Origin: a virus
Direction: 5' to 3' (one strand)
Length of the DNA stretch: 27,126 bases
IMG/VR virus record: IMGVR_UViG_3300046375_000049
Span: 1 to 27,126 of that record
Of the stretch, positions 2,316 through 15,892 are shown piece after piece; the first letter of the stretch is position 1; each line of letters opens with the position of its first letter. The notes beneath the pieces were generated by a model, which worked only from the letters and a program-made list of their open reading frames with translations, had not been told where the DNA came from and made no database searches. A program made the position numbers and the translations under genes.

Positions 2316-3719
2316 ATGCAACCAGCCGCGCCCACGGTTGACCTCAAGTTCCAGTACCCGCCTGGCGTGGTGCCCCCCTGGGAGTTCGCCATTGCCTTCC
2401 TGGGCATCGATCTTTACCCGTGGCAGGCTTTGACCCTCGAGGCGATCGGCCAGGGGATCCCGACCGCGCTGGCTGCAGCGAACGGTTCAGGCAAAACCAG
2501 GCGGATCGTGGCTCCGGCAATTTTGTGGCTCCTGTTCTATTGGCCGCGCGGCCTGGTCCCGGTCACTTCCGGCAGCTGGACCCAGCTCGAGCAGCAGCTT
2601 TGGCCGGCCCTCCTTGAGCACCAGGGCAAGTTCCCGAGCTGGGATTGGCCCGCGATGCGGATCCACACGCCGGAGGGCGGCCGTGCGTTCCTGTTCAGCA
2701 CCAACGACTCGAGGCGCGCGGAAGGTAACCACGGCACGCCCGATGCCCCCTGCATGTATATCATCGACGAGGGCAAAGGGGTCGATGACGGGATCTACAC
2801 TGCCAGTGACCGCTGCACGGCCCAGTACCGGTTTATCTGCAGCTCGGCCGGTGGCCCGTTTGGCCGGTTTTTTGAATGTTTCCATTCGCTCAGAGCCGAG
2901 TATTTCAGTAGGCGCGTGACCAGCGGCCAGTGCCCGCACTTGAAAGAAAAGTACGAACGCGATTGTCGGTTGTATCCAAAGGACGATCCCGATTTCCGCT
3001 CCATGCACTACAGCGAGTTCATGGACGAGGACGGGCCCGGCGTCATCATCAGCGCCGTTTCGTTGCGGGCGTGTTTGGAGGCTCGGGTTGAGCACAAATC
3101 AGCGAGCCGCGCGGCCTTTTGCGACTTTGCGGCTGGGGGCGATGAGAACGTGATTGCGATCGCCGACGGTAACAAGGTTGACCTGATCCGGTGCTGGCGT
3201 GATACCGACCCGATCCGGGCGTGTAAGGACTTTATTGCCGAGTTCGAGCGCATGAAGCTTGTCCCGGCGGAGATTCACGGGGATGAAGGCGGGCTGGGCA
3301 CGGTGATGATTTCCTACTTGGCCGAAATGGGGTGGCGGATTACGGCGGTCAATAACGGCGTACCGGCTCTAGACGAGGATCACTACTGTAACCGCGGGAG
3401 CGAGATCTGGTATTCATGCGCCAAACGGATTTTAAAGAAGGAAATCATTCTGCCCGATGACGCGATTTTCTTTCGCCAGGCGACCACGCGTCGGCGCGAT
3501 TACGACGGCAAAATGCGGCTCCAGGCCGAGAGCAAAGACAAGATGGCTGCGCGCGGGCTCAAGTCGCCGGACCGGGCGGATGCGGTCTTTGGCGCGCTGT
3601 ACTGCCGCGGAATTGGTGGGGTTACCCGGGAACAATTAGCGGGCATTTACCTGCCGCAGAACGAATTTAACGTCGGGCGGCAGTTTGAGACGGTCAGTTT
3701 TCAGGGCGAGGAGGAGTAA
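2316..3719 (+). CDS. terL: phage terminase large subunit (ATPase/nuclease), 467 aa
   Basis: The motor that drives DNA into the prohead and cuts it. The N-terminal ATPase has a Walker A motif AANGSGKT at residues 54-61, an adenine-motif-like 'YPWQ' at 34-37, and Walker B MYIIDE at 147-152 (D151, catalytic E152). The C-terminal RNase H-like nuclease has Asp270 in 'FCDFAAGGDEN', Asp323 in 'HGDEGG', and Asp419/Asp422 in 'SPDRADA'. The length is typical of Mu gp28/Terminase_6-like enzymes. The frame is closed by a stop at 2298-2300, so ATG 2316 is the first possible ATG; its Shine-Dalgarno is weak. No small terminase subunit is recognisable nearby. Confidence 0.93.
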   Translation: MQPAAPTVDLKFQYPPGVVPPWEFAIAFLGIDLYPWQALTLEAIGQGIPTALAAANGSGKTRRIVAPAILWLLFYWPRGLVPVTSGSWTQLEQQLWPALLEHQGKFPSWDWPAMRIHTPEGGRAFLFSTNDSRRAEGNHGTPDAPCMYIIDEGKGVDDGIYTASDRCTAQYRFICSSAGGPFGRFFECFHSLRAEYFSRRVTSGQCPHLKEKYERDCRLYPKDDPDFRSMHYSEFMDEDGPGVIISAVSLRACLEARVEHKSASRAAFCDFAAGGDENVIAIADGNKVDLIRCWRDTDPIRACKDFIAEFERMKLVPAEIHGDEGGLGTVMISYLAEMGWRITAVNNGVPALDEDHYCNRGSEIWYSCAKRILKKEIILPDDAIFFRQATTRRRDYDGKMRLQAESKDKMAARGLKSPDRADAVFGALYCRGIGGVTREQLAGIYLPQNEFNVGRQFETVSFQGEEE

Positions 3720-4042: not shown

Positions 4043-4498
4043 GTGAGTGACGAATTTGCCTTTGCCCCGACGCCAGCCCAAACGACGGCGATGACTGACA
4101 TGAAAGCTTTGATGCCAGGAGTGCATTGGAGCCATGCCTGGAACCAGTTGCGTGCCGGTTATCCGGCTGATTTTGTAGATAATGACCACGACATTTACGT
4201 GGTGGCAAACTATTACGCGAGTATTGCCGTGGCTGCGCCGGCAATTACGGCGCTCTCTCCCGCCACCGGGCCGGCCGGAGCCGATATCACGGTGGACATT
4301 ACCGGTACTGGGTTCGGTCTTTATACGAGCGTCAACATTGGCGAGGCGCACAGTATAGCGCCGGCAAGCGTTTCGCCGACCGAACTGAAGGTGCTTTTCA
4401 GCGGCACGGCGCACATAGCCTATCCCGGGACGTTGCCGGTCAGCGTGACGAACGGGGACGGTCAGGAGAGCAACGCGCTGGATTTTACGGTGACGTAA
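4043..4498 (+). CDS. IPT/TIG-like Ig-fold protein, paralogue 1 (151 aa)
   Basis: Translation probably begins at GTG 4043, with AAAGGA about 6 nt upstream. Residues 1-60 form a helical region containing 'MPGVHWSHAWNQLRAGY' and 'NDHDIYVVANYYASIA'. Residues 65-151 look like an IPT/TIG immunoglobulin-like domain (ITALSPATGPAGADITVDI, TGTGF, then VSVTNGDGQESNALDFTVT). The same two-part layout recurs at 10916-11377. In phages, Ig-like domains usually decorate the capsid or tail and bind weakly to surfaces. Location among packaging genes fits a structural accessory. The next gene starts directly after its stop. Confidence 0.65.
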   Translation: MSDEFAFAPTPAQTTAMTDMKALMPGVHWSHAWNQLRAGYPADFVDNDHDIYVVANYYASIAVAAPAITALSPATGPAGADITVDITGTGFGLYTSVNIGEAHSIAPASVSPTELKVLFSGTAHIAYPGTLPVSVTNGDGQESNALDFTVT

Positions 4499-5581: not shown

Positions 5582-7519
5582 ATGGCCGCTAACCCCGATA
5601 TCGTCGACACCACGAAGCCTGAGGCAATCGTCCCGGACACGGCCAACACGCCTGTGACCGAGCCCCTCATCAATGTTGAGGTGCAAGACAGATTATTACG
5701 GGAATTGAAGAGACGACTTTTCCCGAATGAAATTGAATCAATTCTCTACTCGGCAATCGTCGGCGATCTCTATTGGCAGGATCAACTCTGGAGCCTGATG
5801 GTTGATACTTGGCCGCGGCTCCAGACTAACCTCGGCAAGCTGAAACAGGCGGTTAGCTCGATGGAATACGCAATCCATCCATTTACCGAGGGCGACGAGG
5901 AGCCGACCGATAGCGCCCAGGAAAAAGCCGATTTCGTTGAGGACGCACTTTTCGGGATGCATGGCGATGTGGCGCGTCAGGAGCACGATTTTGAGCAGAC
6001 GTTGGAAGACATTGTCGACTCGCTCATTGCCGGGTTCACGGTAATGGAAGTCTACTGGGAGGCGCGTGACGGCGGGATCATGCCGCAATGTACCCGGTGG
6101 CTCCCAGCGCGATATTTCAGGTTCCCATACGTTTTGGACGACATTGACCGGCTGATGCTTAATCCGAGCGGTATGCTGGGCGGGACGCAGCTAGTGGATT
6201 TCCCGCCGTACAAGTTCTTGGTTTGTATCAAGCAGAGTCATGCCAATCACCCGATCTTCACCTCGCCTATGAGGTGCCTGACGGCGTGGTGGCTAGCGTC
6301 GCGGTTCGGCCTTGAATGGTTCATGAGCTACGCGCAGCTTTTTGGGATCCCGCAACGGATTGCTTATTATCAGCCTGGTGATGATTTAACGTATCAAAAG
6401 CTGGTCCAGATGATGCGAGCTAGCGCCACGGCGACCTGGGGTGTTTACCCGGTCAACACCAAGGTCGAGGTGCTGGGGACGGCCGGCGGCGCTGGCGCGC
6501 ACATGCCGCAGGAACGGCTGATCGATGAAGCGGACAAGGTCTGTGACATCATGTTACTGGGCCAGACGCTAACGACTGAGGTGCGCGAGAGTGGGGGAAA
6601 TAGGGCGCTGGGGATGGTGCACCACAAGGTCATGGACGAGATTTTGGAGGCTGCGTCGCGATACGTTTCCAAGGTCATTACGGCGCAGCTGATCCCGGGG
6701 ATCGTGCAGTACAACTTCGGGAGCACGGATGAGTTGCCGACTTTGGCGCCGGTAGTTAAAAGCCCGATCGATCTGTTTAATTTGGCGCAGAGCTACAACA
6801 TTCTCTTTAACCAGATGCAGATTCCGGTTCTGAACAAGGAGCTCTATGAACGGATCGAGTTTTCTAAGCCGGACGAAGGCGATGATGTTTATGTGCCACC
6901 GGCGACGCCCTTACAGGCAATGCCCAAGCAATCGCCATTTGGTGTGCAGCCGGAACCTGAAGGCGCTAAGCCGGAGCCTGAACACGCGCCGAACGGAAGC
7001 CAGCCCGCAGCATTGAAGCCGAATATCGTCGAGCGGGTGGGTGCGCAGCATGAGGGCGGAAACGATTGCCTGGAGTCGGCTAACGGAGCCCGATTGCTAG
7101 ATCCGGACGATGACGATGATCCGGATGACGGCAGCCTCGTCGAGGCGCGCCACGAACATCGCCATCCGGCGACTGGCCGCTTTATTCCGGCGCCTCCGTC
7201 AAGGCCACCTAAGCGCAAGGTTGGCGTGAAGCGTGGGGAGCCGATACCCGAGGTCGGGCTGATGTGCAAACACAGTCAGACAATGGAGGACAATAAGGTT
7301 TGCCAGGCTTGCAAAGACATCTGTGAAGAGGGCTGGATTCCGATCGACGAGGAGTATCTGGGCTACTCAATGAACCCGCCGCACCACCCAAATTGCCGAT
7401 GCAGCAACGAATACAAGACGGTGTATGGCGGGGTTGACATTCTGCATCAGACCAAGAGCGGTAACCCGCATCATCACCCGGAGACGGGGCGGTTTGTTAG
7501 TAAACCGAAACGAGCATGA
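5582..7519 (+). CDS. portal protein, Mu gp29/DUF935 type, with minor-head-like C-terminus (645 aa)
   Basis: This protein forms the dodecameric DNA channel at the capsid vertex. Residues about 35-440 match the DUF935 portal pattern: 'LYWQDQLWSLMVDTWPRLQ' early, 'FTVMEVYWEARDGG', 'FGLEWFMSYAQLFGIPQRI', and 'MLLGQTLTTEVRESGGNRALG'. Residues about 455-560 are a low-complexity acidic/proline linker. The tail has C562, C574, C577 and C581, then PPHHPNCRC (599-607), the signature that ends Mu F/SPP1 gp7 minor head proteins. An HPxTGRF motif occurs twice (528-534 and 632-638). No separate minor head gene is seen. The gene follows the methyltransferase stop directly and overlaps the next gene (ATGA). 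Confidence 0.9.
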   Translation: MAANPDIVDTTKPEAIVPDTANTPVTEPLINVEVQDRLLRELKRRLFPNEIESILYSAIVGDLYWQDQLWSLMVDTWPRLQTNLGKLKQAVSSMEYAIHPFTEGDEEPTDSAQEKADFVEDALFGMHGDVARQEHDFEQTLEDIVDSLIAGFTVMEVYWEARDGGIMPQCTRWLPARYFRFPYVLDDIDRLMLNPSGMLGGTQLVDFPPYKFLVCIKQSHANHPIFTSPMRCLTAWWLASRFGLEWFMSYAQLFGIPQRIAYYQPGDDLTYQKLVQMMRASATATWGVYPVNTKVEVLGTAGGAGAHMPQERLIDEADKVCDIMLLGQTLTTEVRESGGNRALGMVHHKVMDEILEAASRYVSKVITAQLIPGIVQYNFGSTDELPTLAPVVKSPIDLFNLAQSYNILFNQMQIPVLNKELYERIEFSKPDEGDDVYVPPATPLQAMPKQSPFGVQPEPEGAKPEPEHAPNGSQPAALKPNIVERVGAQHEGGNDCLESANGARLLDPDDDDDPDDGSLVEARHEHRHPATGRFIPAPPSRPPKRKVGVKRGEPIPEVGLMCKHSQTMEDNKVCQACKDICEEGWIPIDEEYLGYSMNPPHHPNCRCSNEYKTVYGGVDILHQTKSGNPHHHPETGRFVSKPKRA

Positions 7520-10915: not shown

Positions 10916-11377
10916 ATGTCTGAGTACGATCCCAGTGCTGAACAGGTGTCGCTCATTGCGGAAGCAAAGAGGCTCAATCCTGGCGTGCACTGGGAGACGC
11001 TTTTCAATATTTTACGCGCAAACTATCGTCTTTATTTTCAGGAGGACGGCCATGATCGATACGTTGTAGCATATAATTACCTGGCAATTGCGGCTGCCGT
11101 TGCGCCGCTTGCTTCATCTAATTTGGTTGCTTTGGCTCCCAATACGGTTGCGCATGGCGGGGCGGCTTTCAATATTCAGGCCATCGGGCAGAATTTCTTT
11201 AACGGTGCTTCGATTATCTTTGATGGGAATGTGATCAATCCGACGACGTTCGTAGATGCTAATTCGTTAGTAGGCGCAGTTAAATCGAACTGGATTACGA
11301 CGGCGCGAACGGTGCAGGTATCGGTTCGGAATGCGGATAGACAAAACAGTCCGGCCCTGTCATTTACGATAACTTAA
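10916..11377 (+). CDS. IPT/TIG-like Ig-fold protein, paralogue 2 (153 aa)
   Basis: A paralogue of the protein at 4043-4498: 'NPGVHWETLFNILRANYRLYF' and 'GHDRYVVAYNYLAIAAAVAP' align with its N-terminal region, and 'ITTARTVQVSVRNADRQN' with its Ig-like domain end. The N-terminal 60-residue module seems private to these two genes. Here the gene follows the major capsid gene, supporting a virion surface or connector role. The start is ATG 10916 with only a weak GGA before it, so it is probably translated by coupling. It is visibly AT-richer than the paralogue. Confidence 0.65.
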   Translation: MSEYDPSAEQVSLIAEAKRLNPGVHWETLFNILRANYRLYFQEDGHDRYVVAYNYLAIAAAVAPLASSNLVALAPNTVAHGGAAFNIQAIGQNFFNGASIIFDGNVINPTTFVDANSLVGAVKSNWITTARTVQVSVRNADRQNSPALSFTIT

Positions 11378-12949: not shown

Positions 12950-13357
12950 ATGCCAGACATTACACCACAAGTTGCACCAACGAGTTACGTAACAAAATTC
13001 CCGGCGGCGACCCAGTATATATTTGGGAGTACGGATGAAACGGGGATCAGTGTCGATACTTACGAGCAACGCGACCAGATCGATCATTACGAACAGAAAA
13101 ACGGCCAGGGCGAGGTTATTGAGGTGGTCACTCACAATCCGCGTTCTGAGATTACTTGCTTGGGCGAGGTGAACGGCGCAGCGATCGCGGCAGTGGTTGG
13201 TCAATCGTTCGTGTTTACCAACTTGTACCTGAAATATTACGGGGCCACCCCGCCGGTTGGGATTGCGATTATTCGCGAGATCCAGACTTCTAAAGGCCGG
13301 GCCAAGAATCAGCAGATTAGGATGACAGCAACGTATTATCCGTTAGTGACCGCGTGA
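12950..13357 (+). CDS. candidate tail tube protein (135 aa)
   Basis: A beta-rich protein (TQYIFGSTDETGISVDTYEQ; GEVIEVVTHNPRSEITCLGEV; NQQIRMTATYYPL) of a size seen for short tube proteins, placed before the chaperone and tape-measure genes. No sheath gene lies beside it, so the tail should be non-contractile. An alternative is a second connector protein. The start is ATG 12950, seven bases after the previous stop, with only weak ribosome-binding sequence. Confidence 0.45.
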   Translation: MPDITPQVAPTSYVTKFPAATQYIFGSTDETGISVDTYEQRDQIDHYEQKNGQGEVIEVVTHNPRSEITCLGEVNGAAIAAVVGQSFVFTNLYLKYYGATPPVGIAIIREIQTSKGRAKNQQIRMTATYYPLVTA

Positions 13358-13361
13358 GGCA

Positions 13362-13817
13362 ATGCCCGTTTCTCATCAGACTGAAGTGCTTTGGACTGCC
13401 AATAAGCGTCTGGCGGTGATCTTGCTGGCGTTTGGCGGCCAACTTTGCCGTGAGACACCGATCGGCTGGGATGATGTATGGCGCGACGTTGACGCGTTCG
13501 TGGAGCGCGAACCATTGCCGCGGCGCATCATCAGCTTCAATTTCGTGGCTACCAAGTTTTTGCGCGAGTTGGCGGCGGCTTACGAATCAAAAGATCGCCA
13601 GGCGTTTCCAAGGCTGGTGGCCGAACTGCTTACTAAGGATGACCGGGAGCGCGTGGTTTTGGCATTGGATATTTTCCGGGAAGTAGTCGCGGCCGGTCAA
13701 CTGTTGGTCGGGCTATTGTTCGCGATGGATCACGCCAAATGGGATGTGATCGGGGATGTGCGTATAGGCAAGAACGCGAGTAACGAATTGCGGGCGGAAT
13801 TTCTCTCCAAGGTATGA
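13362..13817 (+). CDS. hypothetical tail-region protein (151 aa)
   Basis: All-helical appearance with conserved-looking 'GWDDVWRDVDAFVEREPLPRR' and 'VLALDIFREVVAAGQLLVGLLF'. It lies between the putative tube gene and the chaperone and overlaps the latter (ATGA at 13814). Helical proteins in this slot often assist tail assembly or belong to the chaperone group; I cannot say more. No membrane segment is convincing despite the hydrophobic 'LLVGLLFAM'. Confidence 0.55.
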   Translation: MPVSHQTEVLWTANKRLAVILLAFGGQLCRETPIGWDDVWRDVDAFVEREPLPRRIISFNFVATKFLRELAAAYESKDRQAFPRLVAELLTKDDRERVVLALDIFREVVAAGQLLVGLLFAMDHAKWDVIGDVRIGKNASNELRAEFLSKV

Positions 13818-14230
13818 GAACGGAACAGGACCAAGAACTGGATATGACAAGCGATCAGGCGTTAATCAGTGCATTGACGCCCAAGCTGGTCGGCGAGCTA
13901 GAGCTTGAACCTTTTAGCCTGATGCGCCAGGTGATCGCGATTGATTTATGCCGGAAAAGCAGCTCGGTATTTTTCAATGCGATCATGACGGTTTGGGTTT
14001 GCACGCTGAAACCGGCTGAAGTGCTCAAAGCGCATGAGGATATTGCGTCAGCCCAGTTGCGCGCATTTGAATGGGCCGAGGCGCAGGGCTATTCAATGAT
14101 CAATTACGGGCCGATACTAGAGTCCTACAACCGTCTGAACCGTGAACTAAGCGCAGCTGCGCAAGTACGCGTAGGCGACGGCACTGACGGTGAATCGCCA
14201 AAAAACGATGGCGGGCCAGCGGCGCCCTAG
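13814..14230 (+). CDS. tail assembly chaperone, short form (138 aa)
   Basis: Placed immediately before the tape-measure gene, the standard position of the gpG-like chaperone. It is helical (LISALTPKLVGELELEPFSLMRQVIAIDLCRK; SAQLRAFEWAEAQGY) and ends in a flexible acidic/Pro-Gly tail. Near its 3' end, at codons 129-131, the reading frame contains CCA AAA AAC, i.e. A AAA AAC in the zero frame. This canonical -1 slippery heptamer would make a longer fusion with the downstream frame. The start overlaps the previous stop (ATGA). Such chaperones bind the tape-measure protein and recruit tube subunits. Confidence 0.75.
   Translation: MRTEQDQELDMTSDQALISALTPKLVGELELEPFSLMRQVIAIDLCRKSSSVFFNAIMTVWVCTLKPAEVLKAHEDIASAQLRAFEWAEAQGYSMINYGPILESYNRLNRELSAAAQVRVGDGTDGESPKNDGGPAAP
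14200..14206 (+). promoter_or_regulatory. programmed -1 ribosomal frameshift site (A AAA AAC)
   Basis: Six A and a C at 14200-14206 are phased so that zero-frame codons are CCA AAA AAC, matching X XXY YYZ exactly. The -1 frame is closed only 9-15 nt upstream (TGA 14191-14193) and stays open downstream to 14412. A GGCGG/CCGCC stem (14210-14214 with 14237-14241), or a shorter GGGC/GCCC stem inside it, could be the stimulatory structure. Confidence 0.8.
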
Positions 14231-14412
14231 AAATAGCCGCCTGTATCGCGCCTTTAACCGGCATGAACCTCAACCAAATTTTATGGGAGTTGCCGGTCGC
14301 GATTGCGTTGCAGATGCAACTAATCTGGCTCCAGATGCAGGGGCGCGATCTGGTGATTGAGCGCGACTCCGCGCCGTTGCTGGCGCGGCTAAAGAGGAGG
14401 CACCGTGGCTGA
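14206..14412 (+). CDS. -1 frame extension of the tail assembly chaperone (68 aa, made only as fusion)
   Basis: This frame follows the slippery heptamer and runs 68 codons to TGA 14410-14412, giving a predicted fusion of about 199 residues (131 from the first ORF). The extension contains 'MNLNQILWELPVAIALQMQLIWLQMQGRD', reminiscent of the conserved Trp/hydrophobic helix of T-domains, and a basic C-terminus (ARLKRRHRG). An ATG at 14263 exists, but no Shine-Dalgarno supports separate translation. The end overlaps the tape-measure start by 8 bases. By analogy with lambda gpGT, the T part should bind tube protein. Confidence 0.75.
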   Translation, partial: RWRASGALEIAACIAPLTGMNLNQILWELPVAIALQMQLIWLQMQGRDLVIERDSAPLLARLKRRHRG

Positions 14413-15892
14413 AAACGATATCACGATCGGTATTACGGTCGAAGACTCGAGTGCCATCGCTAAGCTAGCTGAGCTTCAAGGTAAGATTGGCCAATCGACT
14501 CAGCAAGGGTTTCAGGAAGCAACCAAACATGCCAATTCATTTAAAGATCGGCTAAGTGATTTAAAAACAGCCATGGCCGGCGTTTTTGCGGTGGATGTCG
14601 CTCAGACTTTCTTTCAAGCCGCCGTCAGTGGGGCCGAGAAGTTAAAGGATGCTTTAATCGATGCCGGGAAACAGGCGGCATCGATGGAACAGATGAAGAT
14701 ACAGCTCGGCATTGAGTTAGGGGCCGGGGGTGTCGCAGCTTCGAAGGAGGTAGTCACTAACTGGGTCAATAAACTCCAATATTTTTCGGATACCACTACT
14801 ACTCAGCTGAACGCAGTAGTGGAGGCATTCCGCCAGACTGTTGCTACAGGGTACACTCCTGATAAGGCATACGAGATGATTCAGCACATCACAGATGTCG
14901 CTGCCGCTACTACGCCTGCTGGTAAAAGCCCATCGGAGCATTTCTCGGAGTTGATGACGACTTTCAATCAGGCCATTAAAGGTGGGGCATTGCTGGAGCG
15001 TGCGATCTATCCGTTGGAGCGTGAAGGTGTGGCTATACGGCCTTTTCTTGAGCAGAAAATGGGTATTCAGCCTGGGCAGTTGGGTGAAATAGGGACCGAG
15101 ATGAGCGAAGAGAACCTGACGGCACTGCGCAGGGCTGTGAAGAAGGGGGAGATCCCGTCCACTTGGTTGCAGGAGTTCTTTGAACAGCAGACTGCGCCTG
15201 GTGGTAAGTATGCAGGGGCCGCTGCTCAGTTTGGCCAGACTGCAATTGGTGGCTGGAGCACTTTGCTGGACAAGTTTCAGAACATAATGCGGGGCATTGG
15301 CTCCGTCGAGCTAGGGCCTTTCGAGGGTATTATTAATAAGATCAATGCCTCCTTTACCCCGGAAACCTACCAGAAGACACAAAACTTCTTCGACGGCATA
15401 GCGAAGAAGGTAAACGAGGCTTTTACCCCGGTTTTAACTCAGGGACTCGATCACCTGATCGATACCTTAAGTAAACAGGATTGGAGTAAGTTGGAGGGGC
15501 CGATTGATTCTGCCATTGAAGGTATGGCTAAGCTTATGATAGCGAGTGGACCGCTTCTTGACTGGTTCGCCAAGGATTTACCAATAGAAATAGAGAACCT
15601 TACGCGGTTAACTCACAGCTTTGAACAGGTTGGCGAAGCCATTGAAAGAACCTTTGGCTGGCTGCTTAATATTAAGTGGCCCCAAGTATCCGAACCGAGC
15701 CCTGCTGAGGCGGCAAAGCCGTTCAATCTTGGCGACTTCTTTTCCAATTTGACCGGGTTTAAAGATCTCCAGAGAGCCTGGGAAGCAATAGCGAAAGAGT
15801 ATTTCCCGAAAGAGGCTAAAGATGACATCGCCAAAACGGCGAGAAATACCGAGACGATAGCTGGTGCCCTTACCGGGAAAGGCACTCCGTAA
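14405..15892 (+). CDS. tape measure protein (495 aa)
   Basis: Sets tail length and is ejected with the DNA. A GTG start at 14405 follows GAGGAGG by 5-6 nt, a very strong site. The protein is long, helical and alanine/glutamine-rich, with an N-terminal 'KLAELQGKIGQSTQQGFQEA' coiled-coil stretch and a 'LKTAMAGVFAVDVAQTFFQAAVSGAEKL' hydrophobic region typical of tape measures. At the usual 0.15 nm per residue, 495 residues would predict a tail of roughly 75 nm. It directly follows the frameshifted chaperone pair, which confirms the assignment. Confidence 0.85.
   Translation: MAENDITIGITVEDSSAIAKLAELQGKIGQSTQQGFQEATKHANSFKDRLSDLKTAMAGVFAVDVAQTFFQAAVSGAEKLKDALIDAGKQAASMEQMKIQLGIELGAGGVAASKEVVTNWVNKLQYFSDTTTTQLNAVVEAFRQTVATGYTPDKAYEMIQHITDVAAATTPAGKSPSEHFSELMTTFNQAIKGGALLERAIYPLEREGVAIRPFLEQKMGIQPGQLGEIGTEMSEENLTALRRAVKKGEIPSTWLQEFFEQQTAPGGKYAGAAAQFGQTAIGGWSTLLDKFQNIMRGIGSVELGPFEGIINKINASFTPETYQKTQNFFDGIAKKVNEAFTPVLTQGLDHLIDTLSKQDWSKLEGPIDSAIEGMAKLMIASGPLLDWFAKDLPIEIENLTRLTHSFEQVGEAIERTFGWLLNIKWPQVSEPSPAEAAKPFNLGDFFSNLTGFKDLQRAWEAIAKEYFPKEAKDDIAKTARNTETIAGALTGKGTP

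Follow-up and report, generated by a model that had tools for sequence, protein, structure and literature searches.

Phage lambda makes two tail assembly proteins, gpG and gpGT, in a ratio of about 30:1 by low-level -1 frameshifting, where G binds the tape measure and T binds the tube (PMC5009743, and the primary work of Levin 1993 and of Xu 2004 and 2013 as cited therein). Across the long-tailed phages the G/GT arrangement is widely conserved (PMC5009743); further marks of this class are a fixed proportion of G to GT and the absence of both proteins from the virion. An annotated joined frameshift gene, in most cases a tail chaperone gene, is present in 2,476 of the 3,679 SEA-PHAGES genomes (PMC10885494). 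In phage TP901-1, disruption of the slip sequence resulted in the loss of tails and a forced G-T fusion gave non-infectious particles (PMC4493119).

The stretch of DNA analysed here, a virus record of 27,126 bases (hereafter the window), contains an overlapping ORF pair directly 5' of a tape-measure gene (Table 1). We consider it very probable, judging from this DNA and its relatives, that the pair is expressed by a true programmed -1 frameshift of the type known from lambda G/GT, making G and a G-T fusion. This kind of frameshift is already well known; the novelty is a sequence family that lies outside present models. The initial annotation had placed the heptamer A AAA AAC in the slippage phase of the G ORF, and this is indeed its phase, the zero-frame codons across it being CCA AAA AAC. 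The -1 frame, described there as closed just upstream of the heptamer and then open for 68 codons, is open from 14194 to 14409 and terminates at TGA 14410-14412, so that it overlaps the tape-measure ORF (GTG 14405) by 8 nt. All coordinates of that annotation were correct. The gap between the stop of G and the GTG of the tape-measure gene is 174 nt, and the predicted G-T fusion is 199 aa long with the junction SPKN-RWR. The proposed likeness to the logic of lambda G/GT also fits, as the site lies next to the tape-measure gene, the slip occurs near the 3' end of the first ORF and the extension lacks a start codon of its own.

Table 1. Features around the slip site, in coordinates of the window.
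Feature	Coordinates	Strand	Remark
Probable tail tube protein	12950..13357	+	Position and conservation only; homologue in 13/13 relatives
151-aa ORF, overlaps the G start (ATGA)	13362..13817	+	tblastn homologue at the same place in 10/13 relatives
Presumed tail assembly chaperone G (zero-frame ORF of 138 aa)	13814..14230	+	Conserved in 18 viral loci
TGA shutting the -1 frame	14191..14193	+	9 nt 5' of the slip site
Slippery heptamer A AAA AAC	14200..14206	+	Every relative has a slip site at the homologous column
-1 frame extension T, 68 codons plus TGA	14206..14412	+	Purifying selection in the -1 frame
Probable ribosome-binding site (AGGAGG) for the tape-measure gene, within the T frame	14395..14400	+	Sequence
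Tape-measure protein gene, GTG start	14405..15892	+	phrog_973, E 4.5e-4; PF20155, E 1.3e-4 (short of the Pfam cut-off)

According to the proposed mechanism, the zero-frame ORF would yield a short and abundant tail assembly chaperone (G). At the heptamer a minority of ribosomes would slip back one base, so that C14206 is decoded a second time, now at the start of a CGA codon, and translation would run on for 68 more codons to yield a G-T fusion of about 199 aa. If the system works as in lambda, the tape-measure protein would be coated by the G part and tail tube subunits would be recruited by the T part, and the G:GT ratio, set by the slip efficiency, would control tail assembly. How efficient the slip is, the G:GT ratio and what G and T bind are inferred. 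In E. coli, A_AAA_AAC slips less readily than A_AAA_AAG (PMC5009743), and the GT fraction may therefore be low.

Taken alone, the heptamer of a single gene would be suggestive. With the codon usage of the window, AAAAAAC or CCCAAAC is expected in phase within the last 12 codons with a probability of 0.0011 (0.11% of tails), and any X XXA AAZ or X XXT TTZ in the same 12-codon tail with a probability of 0.019 (1.9%). Among 7,220 positions in the genes of the window there are 26 in-frame XXXYYYZ sites, of which the slip site alone is AAAAAAC or CCCAAAC. Scans of viral contigs, queried with the protein and with alignments, retrieved 18 related loci, which represent 14 distinct sequences that are 38–78% identical. 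An in-frame slip site is found at the homologous column in 18/18 loci, 25–31 nt 5' of the zero-frame stop, and because the same column holds one in every related locus we regard the site as real and beyond chance. The initial annotation had named loss of the heptamer in relatives, or stop codons in their -1 frame, as the observation that would speak against a frameshift; neither is seen in any of the 18 loci, where the extension of L005 is unreadable and the site of L006 consists of eight consecutive A. All 13 readable relatives have an open -1 frame, L005 being left out as its contig ends before the extension can be read.

The heptamer is AAAAAAC in nine distinct relatives (L002, L003 (=L004), L005, L007, L008, L010, L016, L017 (=L018) and L027) and CCCAAAC in four (L011, L012, L013 (=L014, L015) and L019). 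The sole variant that is neither of these is that of L006 (3369-3376), where the tail is also 3 nt longer. In the exchange of AAA for CCC all three X bases are altered together, by which slippage is kept and the amino acids of both frames are altered. The most economical assignment of heptamer types to a tree of G, built without the slip region, has two changes, and one change is possible. The exchange bears on the alternative that mRNAs in both frames arise by slippage of RNA polymerase on the A-run instead of by ribosomal slippage. The six A of the window and the eight of L006 would offer a substrate for this, but six A is a short run for transcriptional slippage, and in the four distinct relatives with CCCAAAC the same place has runs of only three; transcriptional slippage thus appears extremely unlikely. 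A sequencing error, or a gene that has decayed and been split by a frameshift mutation, would also leave two overlapping frames, and metagenome assemblies often contain such splits. This reading is already refuted by the relatives, as the two-frame layout recurs in 18 loci, which come from many different metagenome records, and both frames are under purifying selection, and we assign it practically no probability.

Comparative evidence shows, at the level of sequence, that the slip site is conserved and that both frames are translated. The T peptides of 13 sequences align from the slip onward (RWRA..), with invariant W, R, A, W, L, P, A, Q and G. When all 13 are compared in pairs, pN/pS approaches saturation at silent sites, and the selection test was therefore restricted to six close relatives (seven pairs). 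In the T frame pN/pS was 0.17 from the slip to the zero-frame stop, 0.10 from there to an ATG at +63 and 0.13 beyond it, against 0.8 or more in the other two frames past the zero-frame stop. The second ORF is thus selected as a protein. No start codon is conserved for it.

These values also bear on the possibility that T is a separate small gene, whose translation from an internal start such as ATG 14263-14265 (+63 from the slip) is coupled to termination of G. Termination-reinitiation is common near overlapping genes, and most close relatives of the window have the +63 ATG at the position it has there or close to it. However, it is not preceded by a Shine-Dalgarno sequence in the window, L010, L012, L016, L017 and L019 have no ATG at that column, and no other start codon is common to all relatives. 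In L016 the T frame contains neither ATG nor GTG, and its first start is a TTG 90 nt past the slip. Furthermore, the codons between the slip and the +63 ATG are as strongly conserved as those beyond it, and the low T-frame pN/pS in this segment means that translation in the -1 frame already takes place ahead of every plausible internal start. An internal start is therefore very unlikely to account for T, and we retain ribosomal frameshifting as the explanation.

A GGCGG/CCGCC stem shortly after the slip site had been proposed as part of the frameshift signal. Both strings are present (14210-14214 and 14237-14241, the first starting 3 nt past the slip site), but they are separated by a loop of 22 nt, and the minimum free energy fold of 14207-14260 leaves them unpaired to each other. 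Sequence downstream of the site in the window folded no better than shuffled sequence (z of +0.38 to +0.46 for 40, 60 and 80 nt), two further folds gave z of -0.66 and +0.74, and z over the lengths tried ranged from -0.7 to +0.7. Over 13 sequences the mean z was -0.45 to -0.63 for folds of 40, 60 and 80 nt, and RNAalifold found no consensus pairs in them. With ordinary folding energy and no consensus pairing, the stem was rejected as a stimulator in the window. The stable conserved stem-loop about 5–9 nt past the slip site that marks structure-stimulated frameshifting was likewise absent from these pseudoknot-free folds. As for an upstream stimulator resembling a Shine-Dalgarno sequence, anti-SD pairing of the 22 nt 5' of the slip site equals the background of the window.

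A hairpin of 9 bp, about 7–31 nt past the slip and thus at the distance usual for a stimulator, can form only in L003, L005, L006 (eight pairs), L007 and L008, and is absent in the window and L002. In this subclade the 40-nt segments had z of -1.8 to -3.4 in the four that were folded, and no two-sided covariation was found in the hairpin.

The second codon of the heptamer is almost always AAC in this group of phages. One could speculate that their -1 shift works without a conserved RNA structure, and that its efficiency is set by the asparagine or lysine tRNAs of the host and not by a stimulator in the mRNA. We hold this to be unlikely. If true, the lambda G/GT switch would exist here in a form tuned by the host, probably a member of the Verrucomicrobiota.

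Neither G nor T has a significant Pfam or PHROG match. The best family match was obtained with the member from L019, to phrog_2624 'tail assembly chaperone', at a non-significant E of 0.026. We infer the tail chaperone role of G and T from gene order and the frameshift, and not from homology. The AlphaFold2 model of G is mostly helical (pLDDT 74.5), with the slip site encoded in a low-confidence tail (residues 119-138), and that of T is a four-helix structure (pLDDT 80). In Foldseek searches the structure of G had a single significant match, an uncharacterised phage protein. Searches of solved structures gave no match by sequence and no significant match by Foldseek, and a second look with VIA-align 2 gave no Z of 5 or more, the best (Z 4.1) being to an unrelated capsid chain. 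Structure searches with T gave no significant match. No relatives were found in sequenced bacterial genomes in two scans with alignments, and no cultured phage significantly matched G, T or the tape-measure protein.

The assignment of the tape-measure gene in the window is consistent with its syntenic counterparts, which match tape-measure PHROGs in L010 (E 2e-11) and L016 (E 1.5e-6). In 12 of 13 relatives the next long ORF starts within about 16 nt of the end of T; the exception is L019, where its first start is about 240 nt further on. Upstream of G, no informative Pfam or PHROG match identified ORF 12950-13357 as a tube protein. Seven relatives (L010-L013, L016, L017 and L019) have two tandem ORFs of about 120–131 aa ahead of the counterpart of ORF 13362-13817; the window and its closer relatives have a single ORF there. 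The right end of the window carries a gene with homologues in the records of four out of five relatives; it has no Pfam match and is named integrase-like from its sequence and position. Two paralogous ORFs (4043-4498 and 10916-11377; 34% identity, E 3e-18) lie apart within the head gene region, and one of them contains an IPT/TIG domain (PF01833, E 1.4e-9). Rfam and tRNA scans of the window returned nothing.

The portal and terminase ORFs (2316-3719 and 5582-7519) match those of Akkermansia phage Chantilly (ON453895.1), with 31% and 35% identity, respectively, and among cultured phages Chantilly is the closest match to the portal of the window. This suggests a host within the Verrucomicrobiota. 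The tail module of Chantilly is unrelated; the in-frame XXXYYYZ sites in seven of its ORFs are TTTCCCG, CCCCCCC and GGGAAAA, with no AAAAAAC or CCCAAAC.

A conserved G/GT frameshift is thereby added for a phage group that has no close cultured relative and no match to family models. The slip site persists in this group while the heptamer switches between AAAAAAC and CCCAAAC, and it reveals a coding extension of 68 codons, T, that ordinary gene calling would miss. The system differs from lambda G/GT in that sequence homology is undetectable, a further ORF of 151 aa is located between the probable tube gene and G, and the slip site has AAC as its second codon with no supported stem in the window. 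The g-t genes of the haloarchaeal virus HCTV-2 share both A_AAA_AAC and the gene context with the window, although the host of HCTV-2 is archaeal (PMC5009743). The gpG/gpT pair of TP901-1 is alike in position and logic but uses a different heptamer, GGGAAAG (PMC4493119), and no sequence relation to it was found. Its chaperone role rested first on synteny and the slip site, before mutagenesis (PMC4493119), and the assignment in the window is likewise based on layout. In the same way, the gene layout allows an otherwise unrecognised protein family to be proposed here as a tail assembly chaperone.
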